This document shows, in pieces, positions 38,209-50,723 of a stretch of 64,000 bases of DNA (positions within the stretch are counted from its first letter, which is position 1; the number at the start of each line of letters is the position of its first letter). Below the pieces are notes generated by a model. It saw nothing but the letters and a program-made list of their open reading frames with translations, was not told the DNA's origin and did not search any database. Both the position numbers and the translations under genes were made by a program. This DNA is from Bacillota bacterium (lineage in GTDB: Bacteria > Bacillota > Limnochordia > Limnochordales > Limnochordaceae): the NCBI GenBank assembly GCA_017577405.1, contig PIUA01000020.1:62001-126000 (forward strand), read 5' to 3'.

Positions 38209-39687
38209 ATGGATCGCTTCGACATCTTTCAGGATATCTCCCGACGGACCCACGGGAGCGTCTACCTGGGCGTGGTGGGCCCCGTGCGGACGGGCAAGTC
38301 CACGTTCATCAAGCGGTTTATGGACCTGATGGTCATGCCGGGGATCACCGATCCCCACGACCGGAACCGCACCCTGGACGCCCTCCCTCAGAGCGGCTCG
38401 GGCCGGGCGATCATGACCACCCAGCCCCAGTTCGTCCCCGAGCGGCCCGTGGAGGTGGAGCTGGAGGACGGCCTCCGCTTCCGCATCCGCCTGGTCGACT
38501 GCGTGGGGTACGCGGTGGAAGGGGCCCAGGGGTACCTCACGGAGCACGGCCCCCGGATGGTCCGTACCCCCTGGTTCGAGCGGGAGATCACCTTCGAAGA
38601 GGCGGCGGAAATCGGGACCCGGAAGGTGATCCAGGACCACTCGACCATCGGCCTGGTGGTGACCACCGATGGCTCGGTGACCGACCTGCCCCGGGAGGCC
38701 TACGAACCCGCGGAGGAGCGGGTGATCCGGGAGCTGCAGGAGCTGGGCAAGCCCTTTGTGGTGCTCCTCAACTCGGTCCGGCCCGAGTCGGCGACCTGCC
38801 GGCAGCTGGCCCAGCAGCTGACCGAACGGTACGGGGTGCCGGTGGTGCCCACCGACTGCCTCCACCTGACCGAGGCCGAGATCCTGGACCTGATGCGGGC
38901 CGTCCTCTACGAGTTCCCCGTGCGGGAGGTGGCCGTCCAGCTCCCGGGCTGGGTGGAGGAGCTGGAGAGCACCCACTGGCTGGCCCAGCAGTTCCGGGAG
39001 GCCGTCTGGGCCGCGGTGGAGCCGGTGGAGAAGGTCCGGGACGTGGACCGGGCCGCCCGGACCCTGGCCGCAGCCGAGCCCGTCGCCGATGCCCGGGTCC
39101 GCTCGGTGGATCTAGGCGAGGGGCGGGCGCTCATCCGGCTGACGGCCGATGAGTCCCTCTTCTACCAGGTAATGCAGGAGATCACGGGCCTGGAGATCGC
39201 CGACGACCGAGCCCTGGTTCGGAACCTGCGGGAACTGGCCCAGGCCAAGCGGGTCTACGACAAGGTGGCCGAGGCCCTGGAACAGGTCCGCCGGACGGGG
39301 TACGGGGTGGTGGCGCCGCTCTTGGAGGAGATCACCTTCGAGGAGCCCGAGATCATCCGCCAGGGTGGCCGCTTCGGCGTCAAGTTGACCGCCTCCGCGC
39401 CGTCCATCCACATGGTCCAGGCCAACATCCTCACGGAAGTGACCCCCTTCGTCGGCACCGAGCAGCAGGGGGAGGAGCTGGCCCGCTACTTCACCGAGGA
39501 GTTCGAGAAGGAGCCGGCGAGGCTTTGGAACTCCGAGTTCCTGGGTCGCTCCCTGCAGGATCTGATCCGGGACGGCATCGAAAGCAAGCTCCACCGCATC
39601 CCCGAACACGCCCAGCACAAGCTGCAGGAGACCTTGACCCGCATCGTCAACGAGGGCTCCGGAGGCTTGATTTGCATCATCCTGTGA
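38209..39687 (+). CDS. spoIVA: Stage IV sporulation protein A (spore coat ATPase)
   Basis: Self-polymerising ATPase that forms the basement layer of the spore coat. The 492-residue length equals that of Bacillus SpoIVA, starting DRFDIFQDISRRTHGSVYLG, with Walker A GPVRTGKS (24-31), TTDGSVTDLPREAY, and the C-terminal region ending GSGGLICIIL. The ATG at 38209 follows GAAGGAGG. CATAAACT at 38130-38137 resembles a sigma-E -10 at a reasonable distance, but no good -35 is seen. Confidence 0.97.
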   Translation: MDRFDIFQDISRRTHGSVYLGVVGPVRTGKSTFIKRFMDLMVMPGITDPHDRNRTLDALPQSGSGRAIMTTQPQFVPERPVEVELEDGLRFRIRLVDCVGYAVEGAQGYLTEHGPRMVRTPWFEREITFEEAAEIGTRKVIQDHSTIGLVVTTDGSVTDLPREAYEPAEERVIRELQELGKPFVVLLNSVRPESATCRQLAQQLTERYGVPVVPTDCLHLTEAEILDLMRAVLYEFPVREVAVQLPGWVEELESTHWLAQQFREAVWAAVEPVEKVRDVDRAARTLAAAEPVADARVRSVDLGEGRALIRLTADESLFYQVMQEITGLEIADDRALVRNLRELAQAKRVYDKVAEALEQVRRTGYGVVAPLLEEITFEEPEIIRQGGRFGVKLTASAPSIHMVQANILTEVTPFVGTEQQGEELARYFTEEFEKEPARLWNSEFLGRSLQDLIRDGIESKLHRIPEHAQHKLQETLTRIVNEGSGGLICIIL

Positions 39688-44753: not shown

Positions 44754-44783
44754 TTGCCTGGGACCGGACGCCCGGAGTAGAAT
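44754..44783 (+). promoter_or_regulatory. Promoter of the HTH/aminotransferase-reductase cassette
   Basis: TTGCCT (44754-44759), 18-base spacer, TAGAAT (44778-44783), directly after the lysC terminator and 47 bases before the GTG at 44830. It is the only promoter candidate seen before the three following genes. Confidence 0.65.
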
Positions 44784-44829
44784 GGGGGGCAAGGAGCACA
44801 CTTTTGTGCACAACCCGGAGGTGCATCCC

Positions 44830-45390
44830 GTGACCGACCTGGTCCGCATCGGCGACAAGGTAATCGACCGGGCCCGCCTCCACCGGCTGATCGACCAGGC
44901 CCTCGACCTTCGTGCCGGCGGGGCCTCCCAGCAGGAGGTGGCCGACCGCCTGGGCACCGACCGGACCTTTGTCTCCCGCCTGGAGACCCTGGGCGAGCTC
45001 CGCCGGGGCCGGCGGATCGGGCTGGTGGGCTTCCCCGTGGCCAACAAAGGGGAGCTGGAGGCCCTGGCCGCCGCGGAGGGGCTCGACTGGGTCCTGCTCA
45101 TGACCGATGCGGAACGCTGGGCCTACGTCCGGAACCGCTCCGGGATCGACCTGGTCAACGACATCATGGCCCTCATCTCCCAAGCGCAGGAGCTGGACGC
45201 GGTGATCGTGCTCGGCTCCGACATGCGGGTTCAGCTCTTGGAGGCCGTGCTGGGGCGGAAGGCGGTGGGTATGGTGATCGGTGCCTCGCCCATCCAGGGC
45301 GACCGCCCGGTGGACACCGATCGGCTGCGGGAGCTGATCCGGGCCCTCAAGGCCTCGGAGAACGGGCCAGGGCCGGCGAGGGGGGAGTGA
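44830..45390 (+). CDS. HTH-domain protein, putative regulator of the cassette
   Basis: 186 residues. The N-terminal third contains a helix-turn-helix: GGASQQEVADRLGTDRTFVS, then RLETLGELRRGRR. The rest is an alpha/beta domain (RIGLVGFPVANKGELEALAA, VLLMTDAERWAYV, DAVIVLGSDMRVQLLEAVLG) that I do not recognise and that might bind a small ligand. I choose the GTG at 44830 after GGAGGTG; an ATG at 44782 overlaps the -10. It leads a compact unit of three genes, so local autoregulation is a reasonable inference. Confidence 0.8.
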   Translation: MTDLVRIGDKVIDRARLHRLIDQALDLRAGGASQQEVADRLGTDRTFVSRLETLGELRRGRRIGLVGFPVANKGELEALAAAEGLDWVLLMTDAERWAYVRNRSGIDLVNDIMALISQAQELDAVIVLGSDMRVQLLEAVLGRKAVGMVIGASPIQGDRPVDTDRLRELIRALKASENGPGPARGE

Positions 45391-45392
45391 CG

Positions 45393-46340
45393 ATGAAGCG
45401 GATCGTGAGCGTCAGCCTGGGCTCCTCGGCCCGGAACACCTCGGCCACCGTCCAGATCGAGGGCGAGCCGGTGACCATCGAGCGGATCGGCACCGACGGT
45501 GACCGCCGCAAGGCCATCGAGCTCATCCAAGAGCTGGACGGGAAGGTGGACGCCTTTGGCATGGGCGGCATTGACCTCTACCTGGTAGCCGGCAACCGCC
45601 GCTACGCCATCCGGGAAGCCAAACCCCTCCTGCGGGCGGCCAAGCGCTCGCCCATCGTGGACGGTTCAGGGCTGAAGAACACCCTCGAGCGGCGGGTGGT
45701 GGAAGAGCTGGACCGGCGCGGGATTGTGCCGCTCCGCAAGAGGCGAGTGCTCTTGGTCTCGGGGGTGGACCGCTTCGGTATGGCCGAGGCCCTGCACCAA
45801 GTGGGCAGCGAGACCATCTATGGCGATGTCATCTTCGCCCTGGGCCTGCCCGTGCCCATCCGTCGCCTGCAGGCCCTTCGGGTGCTGGCCTACACCTTGC
45901 TGCCCATCATGACCCAGCTTCCCTTCAAGATGCTCTATCCCACCGGGGAGCAGCAGGATGAGGCCCGTCCCCGCCACGTCCGGTTCTTCCAGTGGGCCGA
46001 CGTCATCGCCGGCGACTTCCACTTTATCCGCCGGTCCATGCCCGATGACCTGTCAGGCAAGGTGATCCTGACCAACACCGTCACCCCCCAGAACGTGGAG
46101 GAGCTCCGGGCCCGGGGCGTGCGGCTGCTGGTGACCACCACGCCCAACATCCAGGGCCGCTCCTTCGGAACCAACGTGATGGAGGCCCTGATCGTCGCCC
46201 TGGCGGGGAAGCGTTGGGAGGAGATGACCCCCGAAGACTACCATCACTGGTTGGACCGCCTGGGCTTCACCCCCCGGGTGGAGTACCTGAACGGCACCCC
46301 CGAGTCGGAGAGCGGGCAGCCCATCGCCTCGGTCAACTAG
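45393..46340 (+). CDS. Unassigned conserved-looking protein of the cassette
   Basis: 315 residues from the ATG at 45393 (GGGGGAG upstream). Visible blocks: KRIVSVSLGSSARNTSATVQ, IERIGTDGDRRKAIELIQEL, GKVDAFGMGGIDLYLVAGNR, RVLLVSGVDRFGMAEALHQV and VTPQNVEELRARGVRLLVTT. From memory, similar proteins are sometimes labelled quinate 5-dehydrogenase in databases, but I see no typical dinucleotide loop or quinate dehydrogenase motif, so I leave the function open. Linkage to the aminotransferase-reductase fusion suggests a shared pathway. Confidence 0.75.
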   Translation: MKRIVSVSLGSSARNTSATVQIEGEPVTIERIGTDGDRRKAIELIQELDGKVDAFGMGGIDLYLVAGNRRYAIREAKPLLRAAKRSPIVDGSGLKNTLERRVVEELDRRGIVPLRKRRVLLVSGVDRFGMAEALHQVGSETIYGDVIFALGLPVPIRRLQALRVLAYTLLPIMTQLPFKMLYPTGEQQDEARPRHVRFFQWADVIAGDFHFIRRSMPDDLSGKVILTNTVTPQNVEELRARGVRLLVTTTPNIQGRSFGTNVMEALIVALAGKRWEEMTPEDYHHWLDRLGFTPRVEYLNGTPESESGQPIASVN

Positions 46341-46357
46341 TCGCCTCGGTCAACGAG
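46324..46357 (+). repeat. 17-base tandem duplication across a stop codon
   Basis: Units 46324-46340 and 46341-46357 are identical in 16 of 17 bases. The first copy ends in TAG, the stop of the preceding gene; the second has GAG in its place. The second copy ends 13 bases before the ATG of the fusion gene. Confidence 0.85.
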
Positions 46358-46370
46358 AAGGAGGACCTGC

Positions 46371-48893
46371 ATGGATCGCTTTGGCACGTACGTCAACCCT
46401 GTCATTGGCCAGCTCCTCCAGCGCCTGGAGATGGACAAGCGCTTCGTCCGGGGTGAAGGGTGCTTCCTCTGGGACGAAGAGGGCCGGCGCTACGTGGACT
46501 TCCTGGCCGCTTACGGCGCCCTGCCCTTCGGCTTCAACCCGCCCGAAGTCTGGGAGGCGATCCGCTCGGTGGAGCGGGCCCAGGCGCCCAGCTTTGCCCA
46601 GCCCTCCTCCCTGGACGCGGCGGGCGAGCTGGCCCAGCGGTTGATCGAGCTGGCCCCGCCCGGCTTCCGGACCGTGACCTTCACCAACAGCGGCACCGAG
46701 GCCATCCAGGCGGCCATTCGGGCGTGCCGGCTGGCGACGGGCCGTGCCCGGGTGCTCACCTGCCAGGGCGGCTACCACGGCCGGGCCCCCCTGGGGGCAC
46801 CCCCTGGCTGGAGCCCGGCCGGGTCGGCCCAGGAGACCAATCAGGTGCCCTATGGGGATCTGGAGGCGCTGGAGGCGGCGCTCCGGGCCAACCCCGAGGC
46901 CTACGCCTGCTTTGTGGTGGAGCCCATCCAGGGAGAGGGAGGCATCGTCGAGCCGCCGGCGGGCTACCTGGCCGAGGCCCAGCGCCTCTGCCGGGAACAT
47001 GGGGTCCTCATGGTGGTGGATGAGATCCAGACGGGTCTGGGCCGGACGGGTCGCCTGTTCGCCTGTGAGGAGGCGGGCATCACGCCCGATGTCCTCACCC
47101 TGGCCAAGGCCCTGGGTGGGGGTCTCATGCCCATCGGGGCCGTCTTGCTGACAGAGGCGGCCGCCTGCCCCGCCTACTTCGCCACCCAAGCGTCCACCTT
47201 CGCCGGGGGCACCTTGGCCTGCCGGGCCGGCCTGGCCACCCTGGACCTCCTCACCCGGAACGATCAGGAGCTGGTCCGGGAGGTGGCCCGGAAAGGGGCC
47301 CGCCTGAAGGCGCAGCTGGAGGCGCTCCGGGAGCGCTACCCCCGGGCGCTGGCAGCCGTCCGGGGCCGGGGCTTCATGCTGGGCCTGGAGCTGACCCCCA
47401 CCCGGGCCAGCCATCCCCAGAGCCTGGTGGGCATCCTGGGCGAGCAGGGGCTTCTCGCCTCCCTGGTGGCCAGCTACCTGTTGAATGTGGAAGGGATCCG
47501 GGTGGCCACCACCCTCAATCGGGCCAACGTCCTCCGGGTCGAGCCGCCCCTGACCCTCTCGGAGGAGCTCAGCGATCAGCTGGTGGCCGCCTTGGATCGG
47601 GTCCTCAGCCTGGTGGACCGGGGCGATACGGCGGGCCTGGTCGCCCACCTGGCGGGGGTCGAGCTGCCTGAGGGGCCCCGGCCGGTGGTCCAGGCGGTGC
47701 CGGCCGCGCCCCGGGTCCAGCCCAGCGGCTCGCCCGAGGAAGGCCGCTTCGCCTTCCTGGTCCACCCGCTCACCCTGATCAACTACCGGGATTACGATCC
47801 CAGCTTCGCCGTCTTCGACGAGGAGGCCCTGGGCCGCTTGGCCCGCCGCTGGAGCGACATCATGGAGCCCATGGTAGTAGGGGAGACCCGGATCGAGTCG
47901 GCCACAGGGGCGGTCGCCTATGGGGAGTTCGTCGCCGTTCCCCGGACGACCGAGGAGCTCTTGACCATGCCCCGGGAGCAGGCCCAGGCGGAGGTCCGCC
48001 GGGCGGTGGAGCTGGCCCGGGACCGGGGGGCCCGGATCGTGGGCCTGGGCGCCTACACCGCGGTGGTCACCATGGGCGGGCTGGGGTTGACCGACCTGGG
48101 CGTGGCCATCACCACCGGCAACAGCTACACCGTCATCTCCGCCCAGGAGGCCATCGGGCTGGCGGCCGAACGACTGGGGGTGCCCCTGAACCAGGCCGCG
48201 GTGGCGGTGGTGGGGGCGACGGGCTCCATCGGGCGGGCCCTGGCCCTTCTTCTGGCCGCGGAGGCGAAGCAGCTGATTCTCGTGGGCAACCAGGCCCACC
48301 CCCAGGCGAGCCTCCGGCGCCTGAAGCGGGTGGCGGAGGCGGCGGTCGAAGCCGGCCACCAGCCCGAGTTCGAGCTGACCGTCGATGTGGACGCGGCCCT
48401 CGCCGCCGCCGACGTGGTGGTAACGGCCACCTCCAGCACTCTGGAGCTGGTCCGGCCCGAGAACGTCAAGGCAGGGGCCATCGTCTGCGACATGTCCCGG
48501 CCGCCTAACGTGGCCGCCCGGATGCAGGCCGAGCGGCCTGATGTGCTCGTTATCGACGGCGGGGTGGTGGAAGTTCCGGGCCGGCCCTACATGGGCTTCA
48601 ACTTCGGCTTCGAGCGGGGACTCGCCTATGCGTGCATGTCAGAGACCATGATGCTCGCCCTGGAGCAGCATTACGAGCACACCAGCCTGGGCAGCGAGTT
48701 GCCCCTGGCCACCCTGGAGATGATGCGGAACCTGGCCGCGAAGCACGGCTTCCGCCTGGCCTGGCTCCGGAGCTTCGACCGGCCCTTGAGCGAGGCCGAC
48801 TGGCAGCGGGTCCAGAAAGCCCGGGCCGAAGCCCTGGGCCTTCACCCCCGGGCGGCAGGCGGCGGGGGGCCCCGCCAGGGTGCACGAGGGTAA
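46371..48893 (+). CDS. Fusion of class III aminotransferase and acyl-ACP reductase-like domain
   Basis: An 840-residue two-domain protein. Residues 1 to about 425 are a class III PLP aminotransferase: TFTNSGTEAIQAAIRACRLA, GGYHGR, VDEIQTGLGRTG and the PLP lysine Lys246 in LAKALGGG. After a proline-rich linker, residues about 465-820 resemble cyanobacterial acyl-ACP reductase: RIESATGAVAYGEF, GLGAYTAVV, ITTGNSYTV, VAVVGATGSIGRALALLLA, IDGGVVEVPG and Cys755 in AYACMSETMML, aligning by eye with that family's active cysteine. I infer thioester reduction followed by amination of the aldehyde; the true substrates are unknown. Confidence 0.85.
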   Translation: MDRFGTYVNPVIGQLLQRLEMDKRFVRGEGCFLWDEEGRRYVDFLAAYGALPFGFNPPEVWEAIRSVERAQAPSFAQPSSLDAAGELAQRLIELAPPGFRTVTFTNSGTEAIQAAIRACRLATGRARVLTCQGGYHGRAPLGAPPGWSPAGSAQETNQVPYGDLEALEAALRANPEAYACFVVEPIQGEGGIVEPPAGYLAEAQRLCREHGVLMVVDEIQTGLGRTGRLFACEEAGITPDVLTLAKALGGGLMPIGAVLLTEAAACPAYFATQASTFAGGTLACRAGLATLDLLTRNDQELVREVARKGARLKAQLEALRERYPRALAAVRGRGFMLGLELTPTRASHPQSLVGILGEQGLLASLVASYLLNVEGIRVATTLNRANVLRVEPPLTLSEELSDQLVAALDRVLSLVDRGDTAGLVAHLAGVELPEGPRPVVQAVPAAPRVQPSGSPEEGRFAFLVHPLTLINYRDYDPSFAVFDEEALGRLARRWSDIMEPMVVGETRIESATGAVAYGEFVAVPRTTEELLTMPREQAQAEVRRAVELARDRGARIVGLGAYTAVVTMGGLGLTDLGVAITTGNSYTVISAQEAIGLAAERLGVPLNQAAVAVVGATGSIGRALALLLAAEAKQLILVGNQAHPQASLRRLKRVAEAAVEAGHQPEFELTVDVDAALAAADVVVTATSSTLELVRPENVKAGAIVCDMSRPPNVAARMQAERPDVLVIDGGVVEVPGRPYMGFNFGFERGLAYACMSETMMLALEQHYEHTSLGSELPLATLEMMRNLAAKHGFRLAWLRSFDRPLSEADWQRVQKARAEALGLHPRAAGGGGPRQGARG

Positions 48894-49107: not shown

Positions 49108-49185
49108 TGGTCGGGCTGGCCGGATTTGAACCGGCGACCTCCACACCCCCAGTGTGGCGCGCTAACCAAGCTGCGCTACAGCCCG
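49108..49185 (-). tRNA. tRNA-Pro (anticodon GGG)
   Basis: Minus-strand cloverleaf with acceptor CGGGCTG/CAGCCCG, D-arm TAGCGCAGCTTGGTTAGCGC, anticodon stem CCACA/TGTGG with loop CTGGGGG (anticodon GGG) and T-arm CCGGTTCAAATCCGG. CCA is encoded at 49110-49108. It has its own promoter and terminator and reads against the flanking protein genes. Confidence 0.96.
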
Positions 49186-49304: not shown

Positions 49305-50723
49305 ATGGAGCGGATCACCCTTGCCCGCGCGCTGGCCATGGGCCGGGAGGAGGCCCGAGCCCTCGATCGTGACTCCCCCAAGGGCCGCCTCCGGAGCACC
49401 CCGCCGGGCAGGGACCGGCTCTTCATCCGGGCCGAGGGCTGCCGCCTCTGGGACGACCAGGGTCAGGTCTACCTCGACTTCGCCGGCCAGGGGGGCACCC
49501 TCAGCCTGGGCCACAACCCGGCCCCGGTCCTGGAAGCCGTCCGGCTCGTGGCCGAGCGGCCCAACCTGCTCCAGGTGGGCCTGGATCCGGTGATGTCCGC
49601 CCTCATGCAGAACCTCGCCGCCCTCGCGCCGGAGGCGCTGGCCCGCCCCCTCCTGACGGCCAGTGGGCGGGAGGCGATAAGGGCGGCCGTGGGTCTGGCC
49701 CGGCGGGCGACAGGCCGGCCCCGGATTCTCGTCTGCGAGGGCGCCTCGTCAGACCTCTCCCTGGACTCGTGGGCCGCCGAGCCACCACCGGCGGAGACTC
49801 CCACGGCCGCGGCCCCCGTGGCTGAGACCGCCGCCACCGCAACCTCCGCCCCGCCGGGGACCGGGCTGGCGGCGGTACCCTACGGGGATCTGGCCGCTCT
49901 GGAGGAGGCCTTGGCGGGCCGGGAGGTGGCCGCCTTCGTCGTCGAACCCATCCAGGTCGAGGCCGGGGTGCTGCTCCCGCCTCCCGGGTACCTCCAGCGG
50001 GCCAGGACCCTCTGCCGCGAACGCGGAACGCTGTTCATCGTGGATGAGCGTCGGACAGGCCTGGGCCGGACCGGCACCCTCTTTGCCTGCCAGGCCGAGG
50101 GGATCGAACCGGACATCCTCTGCCTGGGCCCCAGCCTGGGCGGCGGTGTGGAACCTCTGGGGGCCGTGCTCACCACCGAGGCCCTCTGGCGGCAAGCCAC
50201 CGCTCGCCGGGAGGGACGCTGGATCGAGACCCTCCTGCCCGAGGTGGGTACCAGGGCCGCGGCGGCCGGGTTGGCTACCTTGGAGAGCCTCCTGGACGAG
50301 GGCTTGCCCGCCCGGGCGGCGGAGCTGGGCGCCTACCTGCTGGCCCGGCTGGAAAGCCTTCAGGCTGAACACCACACCGTGGTCAAGGCGGTGCGGGGGC
50401 GAGGGTTTCTTGTGGGGCTGGAGTTCGAAGACGTCCGGAGCTGGGCGACCCGTCTTCCCTTCGGCGGCCGTGGGGCCTTCGGGCCCGGGGGCCTCGCCAC
50501 CTGGGTGGCGGGGGAGCTCCTCCAGCGCCACCGGATGCTCACGCACCCTGTCCAGCCCCAGGTGCTCCTCTTGGCACCACCCCTCACCATCGGCCGGAAC
50601 GAGATTGACCAGGTGGTGGACGCTTTGGGCCAGGTGCTGGCAGGCGCCCGGCCCGGGTGGAGTCTCGCCGTTCGGTCAGCGCTCACCGGGCTCCGGCACC
50701 TCCGGGGAGGCTCGCCAAGCTGA
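49305..50723 (+). CDS. Class III aminotransferase homologue lacking the PLP lysine (probable pseudoenzyme)
   Basis: 472 residues clearly homologous to class III aminotransferases and to the fusion protein upstream: VYLDFAGQGGTLSLGHNPAP, FVVEPIQVEAGVLLPPPGYL, VDERRTGLGRTGTLFACQ and PDILCLGPSLGGGVEPLGAV. The PLP lysine of the LAKALGGG motif is replaced by Pro276 (LGPSLGGG). SGTEA has become SGREA, and the Gly-Tyr-His block is replaced by a serine-rich stretch and an alanine/threonine-rich insert. The frame is intact with normal composition, so it is not a decaying gene by that measure. A structural or regulatory partner of the fusion enzyme is inference. The ATG at 49305 follows GGGGGCGGAG. Confidence 0.85.
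   Translation: MERITLARALAMGREEARALDRDSPKGRLRSTPPGRDRLFIRAEGCRLWDDQGQVYLDFAGQGGTLSLGHNPAPVLEAVRLVAERPNLLQVGLDPVMSALMQNLAALAPEALARPLLTASGREAIRAAVGLARRATGRPRILVCEGASSDLSLDSWAAEPPPAETPTAAAPVAETAATATSAPPGTGLAAVPYGDLAALEEALAGREVAAFVVEPIQVEAGVLLPPPGYLQRARTLCRERGTLFIVDERRTGLGRTGTLFACQAEGIEPDILCLGPSLGGGVEPLGAVLTTEALWRQATARREGRWIETLLPEVGTRAAAAGLATLESLLDEGLPARAAELGAYLLARLESLQAEHHTVVKAVRGRGFLVGLEFEDVRSWATRLPFGGRGAFGPGGLATWVAGELLQRHRMLTHPVQPQVLLLAPPLTIGRNEIDQVVDALGQVLAGARPGWSLAVRSALTGLRHLRGGSPS

Follow-up and report, generated by a model that had tools for sequence, protein, structure and literature searches.

A transaminase–acyl-thioester reductase fusion with an altered transaminase half in a Limnochordia genome

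The window analyzed here, a stretch of 64,000 nucleotides from contig PIUA01000020.1 of a Limnochordaceae draft assembly (GCA_017577405.1), encodes a class III aminotransferase joined in one chain to an acyl-thioester reductase. As judged from its sequence, the protein belongs to the transaminase–thioester reductase fusions of the TamH/KecF/Thermincola type. It is probably an enzyme of this known kind, converting an acyl thioester via the aldehyde to an amine, with a second step that is possibly altered or lost in the window copy. What goes beyond the initial annotation is the housekeeping-like distribution and setting of the gene, its conserved uncharacterized partners and the damaged transaminase of the window copy. 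Domain homology, residue conservation, gene distribution and the lesion were established directly and are described below.

The fusion reading frame has no internal stop codons. It starts 31 bases past the stop codon of the upstream gene, and a strong Shine-Dalgarno-like sequence, AGAAGGAGG, lies just 5' of its ATG. Dozens of genomes share this fusion, and the domain matches described below are far stronger than chance would give. An AlphaFold model of the protein has a mean pLDDT of 89.7 and PigE as its best match among solved structures. A 14-base direct repeat (TCGCCTCGGTCAAC, window positions 46324–46353) runs from the end of the preceding gene, QDH, into the gap before the fusion gene and is perhaps a recent small duplication. 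For the coordinates of all features see Table 1.

Table 1. Features of the fusion gene and its surroundings (window coordinates).
Feature	Position	Strand	Basis
REG, helix-turn-helix regulator, 202 aa, overlaps QDH start	44782..45390	+	weak HTH matches, alignment
QDH, uncharacterized Rossmann-like protein, 317 aa, directly upstream of fusion	45387..46340	+	conservation
Transaminase–acyl-thioester reductase fusion, 840 aa	46371..48893	+	open frame, Pfam/NCBIfam/PDB matches, fusion conserved in relatives
Class III aminotransferase domain, residues 1–430	46371..47660	+	Aminotran_3, PigE C-terminal domain, Foldseek
Aminotransferase lesion, residues 133–152	46767..46826	+	alignment with 31 fused relatives
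Lys246 codon, predicted PLP Schiff-base lysine	47106..47108	+	unchanged in all 32 fusions
Acyl-ACP-reductase-like (thioester reductase) domain, residues 457–825	47739..48845	+	PDB, profile, NCBIfam matches
GATGSIG dinucleotide-binding motif, residues 615–621	48213..48233	+	alignment with SeAAR GATGDIG
Cys755 codon, predicted acyl-accepting cysteine (YACMSET)	48633..48635	+	SeAAR/PigE catalytic Cys alignment, conservation
AT2, second class III aminotransferase	49305..50723	+	Aminotran_3 5.9e-60

Domain assignment and characterized relatives

The aminotransferase half matches Pfam Aminotran_3 over residues 25–412 (E = 1e-80) and the C-terminal domain of PigE (3.7e-74); the top Foldseek match is likewise PigE (PDB-entry 4ppm). 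The position of the class III PLP lysine, which the initial annotation had placed at Lys246, was confirmed, and the residue is invariant among the fusions. For the C-terminal half Pfam reports general Rossmann families only, at about residues 598–720. A phmmer search of this half alone against the PDB found the N-terminal domain of PigE (1.3e-26) and the Synechococcus acyl-ACP reductase 6jzq (8.5e-21), and the similarity to both spans nearly the whole domain. A profile built from 14 relatives raised these matches to 5.4e-59 and 1.1e-41, respectively. With the reductase domain alone, NCBIfam gave 184.7 bits for PigE and 98.0 bits for the acyl-ACP reductase family TIGR04058; the next families were glutamyl-tRNA reductase (30.1 bits) and shikimate dehydrogenase (18.4 bits). 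PDB, profile and NCBIfam matches thus agree with the earlier assignment of residues ~465–820 to an acyl-ACP-reductase-like domain, here delimited to about 457–825. The profile search that had been proposed as a check returned no better-scoring Rossmann family, and since PigE and acyl-ACP reductase score best, the assignment withstood this challenge. Shikimate/quinate dehydrogenase was rejected on its NCBIfam score and because Pfam PF01488 spans the nucleotide-binding part only; semialdehyde dehydrogenase and the general Rossmann families were ruled out on score.

The phmmer alignment pairs Cys755 with Cys294 of SeAAR and Cys296 of PigE (numbering as in PMC9594044 and PMC8341465), in agreement with the acyl-accepting role first proposed for this residue. 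No variation was seen at this cysteine among 14 domains, fused or standalone, or among 32 fusions. The GATGSIG motif lines up with the NADPH-binding motif of acyl-ACP reductase. The protein therefore shows two of the features that mark TamH, KecF and TfFusion: an N-terminal class III PLP aminotransferase with its Schiff-base lysine, and a C-terminal acyl-ACP-reductase-like domain with GxxGxxG and an acyl-accepting cysteine. At the level of equivalogs, the PigE model NF053554 scored 530.8 bits, under its curated cut-off of 850, the domain order being reversed relative to PigE. The score for TIGR04058, the equivalog of the cyanobacterial long-chain acyl-ACP reductase, is far under the curated cut-off of 449.7 bits, so that family assignment does not define the acyl substrate.

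The closest biochemical precedent is PtTamH from Pseudoalteromonas tunicata (2022), an N-terminal transaminase followed by a C-terminal NADH-dependent thioester reductase, for which both steps were shown (PMC9594044). In a coupled assay with NADH and L-Glu the purified enzyme converted C12-ACP to dodecylamine (PMC9594044). PtTamH shares with the window protein the order of the two domains, the GxxGxxG motif and the catalytic cysteine. Its gene, however, lies in a tambjamine biosynthetic cluster that also encodes a dedicated acyl-ACP ligase, TamA, whereas no such partner lies near the window gene, and the transaminase segment that is damaged in the window protein sets the two apart as well.

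Fusions with the same layout from Bacillota, namely Thermaerobacter marianensis, T. subterraneus and Thermincola ferriacetica, were characterized in 2024 (PMC10829540). According to the main text of that paper the transaminases of TfFusion, TmFusion and TsFusion use L-glutamate to convert aliphatic aldehydes, the assignment of the reductase is structural, and the cysteine was mapped to SeAAR Cys294; the main text describes no lesion and mentions no link to REG and QDH. Among the relatives, both reactions are established for TamH and the transaminase for the Bacillota fusions. KecF from the koreenceine pathway and PP_2782, both from Pseudomonas, have the TamH domain order as presented in PMC6498172 and PMC10829540. 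Like the window protein they combine a transaminase with a following COG5322 acyl-ACP-reductase-like domain; unlike it, they have a polyketide-ACP as proposed substrate and belong to a type II PKS cluster. PigE, from Serratia prodigiosin biosynthesis, carries TamH-type domains in reverse order (PMC8341465); it is the best PDB match for both halves and has both chemistries in common with the window protein, but its reductase comes first. The cyanobacterial acyl-ACP reductase shares fold family and catalytic cysteine with the reductase domain, but is a standalone enzyme whose aldehyde goes to an alkane-forming oxygenase. The initial annotation had stated that no enzyme of this layout was described in a spore former. 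The layout is published (PMC9594044, PMC6498172, PMC10829540), and because these TamH-order fusions include Bacillota, the statement of novelty is outdated.

The altered transaminase half

In the relatives inspected, the segment NSFHGKTLGALSATGxxxYQ is kept. In the window protein 14 residues of it are missing and the remainder is rewritten, a change that the initial annotation had overlooked. Residues 139–152 of this zone are modeled at pLDDT < 50, while the rest of the aminotransferase domain is confident. Compared with 31 other fusions, 30 out of 147 near-invariant sites are changed in the transaminase half of the window protein versus 2 out of 87 in its reductase half. The other fusions show between 0 and 14 changed transaminase sites, with 22 in the most divergent sequence, from a planctomycete; the ortholog from the same genus (G001) comes close to normal, with 6 of 143 sites changed. 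The changes cluster at residues 133–156, 265–280 and 363–384. Lys246, Asp217, Gln220, Tyr135-His136-Gly137-Arg138 and Ser275-Thr276 are kept, including the usual PLP contacts, and the overall dN/dS against G001 is 0.25 for the transaminase half, equal to that of the reductase half. With the PLP contacts kept and an ordinary overall dN/dS, the change is concentrated in the active-site region.

A second aminotransferase, AT2, follows the fusion gene, with a tRNA-Pro (49108–49185) in between. It carries a proline (codon 50130–50132) in place of the PLP lysine, whereas the ortholog in G001 is intact. Its dN/dS is 0.56, compared to 0.18–0.32 in ten neighboring genes or domains. By these signs AT2 is probably decaying under relaxed selection.

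Loss of the conserved segment puts the amine-forming step of the window copy in doubt. The initial annotation had proposed conversion of an acyl thioester via the aldehyde to the amine within one chain; homology and the activities shown for TamH and PigE support this for the family, and its last step is doubtful for the window copy. From the sequence, transamination seems to be altered or on its way out in this lineage, and the species may make the amine poorly or not at all.

In a rival reading the transaminase half of this species has lost all or almost all activity, leaving an acyl-thioester reductase that releases the aldehyde or passes it on and uses the PLP domain as a scaffold; we regard this as plausible though less probable. 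The loss after FHGK, the clustering of changes in one half of the protein, the missing lysine of AT2 and five relatives with a standalone reductase but without a clear TamH-like transaminase all point this way. They have to be weighed against the retained lysine and surrounding residues listed above, the equal dN/dS of both halves and the confident model of the remaining domain.

The lesion is known from one draft genome of the species (52 contigs, 86% complete), and the altered segment is very G+C-rich. Both would fit an assembly or sequencing artefact that hides an ordinary, intact fusion. We consider this unlikely, since the frame is open, substitutions extend over several parts of the domain beyond the gap itself, and AT2 decays independently.

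Distribution and genomic setting

Of 61 Limnochordia genomes, 57 encode the reductase. It is usually a single gene that is either fused or standalone, and no genome has both forms; one genome (G041) carries two standalone genes, each on its own contig. The fusion occurs in families f1, f2, f3, f7, f8, f13, f14 and f15, the standalone reductase in f4, f5, f6, f9, f10 and f12. In one genome (G006) the two halves are adjacent in separate frames. Of the 23 genomes whose reductase is standalone, 18 have a separate TamH-like transaminase, defined by at least 270 bits against the first half of the fusion (the five others being those mentioned above); none of the four genomes without any reductase has one. 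The hypergeometric probability of this co-occurrence is 0.007, a value that is indicative only, as the genomes are related.

Many other Bacillota outside the class have the fusion as well, and so do two planctomycetes and Pseudomonas. Alkaliphilus and Natronincola encode aminotransferase and reductase as split but adjacent genes. In a tree of the reductase the fused proteins, the Pseudomonas gingeri enzyme among them, group in one supported clade; entries labeled standalone within this clade are truncated at contig ends or by frame breaks, and PigE sits on a very long branch whose placement we do not trust. At the P. gingeri locus (L083, 475–12924) the genes around the fusion code for an AMP-binding enzyme, an acyl carrier protein and a fatty acid desaturase, which likely makes this an alkylamine-type biosynthetic cluster. 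One planctomycete fusion (L105, 164–7230) has an additional N-terminal extension and directly follows a 1371-aa protein that on visual inspection resembles an NRPS. A contig assigned by binning to Deltaproteobacteria (L043, 3921–8745) carries REG, the fusion and a relative of AT2 in the order of the window, without QDH; its grouping with Bacillota possibly reflects transfer or misbinning.

QDH was found in 60 and REG in 59 of the 61 class genomes, and in several phyla standalone reductases have QDH as a neighbor. QDH matched no Pfam family and contains no cysteine; a literature search on its annotation found nothing. We considered it as a divergent paralog of acyl-ACP reductase (AAR) and do not claim this: the TM-score of 0.50 to 6jzq stands among many weak fold matches, the profile comparison gave a probability of 0.8%, and the cysteine is absent.

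The gene order dusB-REG-QDH-reductase-greA-lysS recurs with the standalone form within the class, in Negativicutes, in Halonatronum and in other Bacillota. At one locus (L051) the fusion occupies the reductase slot of this order, and where the fusion sits elsewhere REG and QDH remain together. In many Bacillota, dusB and greA-lysS flank the standalone homologs. This position, together with the distant similarity to HemA (glutamyl-tRNA reductase), would suit a non-fatty thioester or an aminoacyl ester such as aminoacyl-tRNA as substrate, with the transaminase yielding a precursor of a small diamine or amino alcohol. We judge this quite improbable, as the similarity to acyl-ACP reductase and PigE extends over the full length and the adjacency to lysS is possibly mere conserved synteny.

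In the window the fusion is surrounded by genes of the homoserine/threonine pathway, elongation factor G and spoIVA, with no dedicated activating enzyme or carrier beside it. In a few relatives dapB adjoins the fusion. The neighbors of other Bacillota fusions vary (ProRS, 5-FTHF cyclo-ligase, M16 peptidases, a glycosyltransferase) and indicate no pathway.

The host assembly contains a single phosphopantetheine carrier domain. Exactly one is present in 56 of the 61 class genomes, two in four and none in one, so that a dedicated PKS or NRPS carrier is unlikely. On gene content, the acyl donor is likely the fatty-acid ACP of the cell, or CoA. A near-universal, essentially single-copy reductase together with one carrier fits a housekeeping role better than a secondary-metabolite cluster, and in Limnochordia the fusion or reductase looks like a conserved cellular function. 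That the fusion is instead a chain-release enzyme for a prodiginine- or alkaloid-type amine is very improbable given these counts and the neighbors of the window gene, even though TamH, PigE and KecF act in such clusters, the P. gingeri and planctomycete members have cluster-like surroundings, such a role has been suggested for the Thermaerobacter and Thermincola relatives, and PMC10829540 reports antiSMASH hits in thermophile genomes.

Proposed reaction and its place in the cell

Based on the domain assignment and the published enzymology we propose the following sequence of steps, in which we infer substrate, carrier, channeling and product for the window protein. Cys755 would accept the acyl group from a carrier, most likely the one fatty-acid ACP of the cell, or else CoA. 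The acyl-enzyme would then be reduced by NAD(P)H bound to the GATGSIG motif, and the aldehyde would be released. In the next step it would reach the N-terminal PLP domain and be transaminated at Lys246 with a donor such as L-glutamate to yield a primary alkyl amine. In the window species the reductase half appears intact in sequence, and the transaminase step may be altered or lost.

We favor the two-step reading because of the domain matches, the cysteine and lysine invariant in 32 fusions and the fold match to PigE. It draws further support from the context in P. gingeri, the split adjacent genes and the co-occurrence of transaminase and standalone reductase, as well as from the single reductase (57/61) and single carrier (56/61) per genome and the enzymology of relatives (PMC9594044, PMC8341465 and the main text of PMC10829540). 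It is weakened by the changed and lost residues of the window transaminase (30/147 sites and 14 residues), the low TIGR04058 score, the five reductase genomes without a clear TamH-like transaminase and the absence of a dedicated activating enzyme or carrier beside the gene. The main text of PMC10829540, in which the Bacillota fusions are assayed for transaminase only, weakens it as well.

Relatives of the protein have so far been treated as natural-product or biocatalysis enzymes. The near-universal, essentially single-copy reductase and the mostly single carrier suggest that spore-forming bacteria use fatty aldehydes or amines in a housekeeping role that has gone unrecognized. As a tentative and rather doubtful extension, the fused or split form in Limnochordia and many other Bacillota might, along with REG and QDH, belong to core lipid metabolism and supply long-chain primary amines from ordinary fatty acyl-ACP, with the lineage of the window losing the amine step and ending at the aldehyde. 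With its reductase intact in sequence and its transaminase damaged, the window protein is a natural variant that could help to tell the two steps apart. The spoIVA gene of the window (38209–39687) scores 716 bits against TIGR02836 (cut-off 459.9), and its presence is in line with a spore-forming host.
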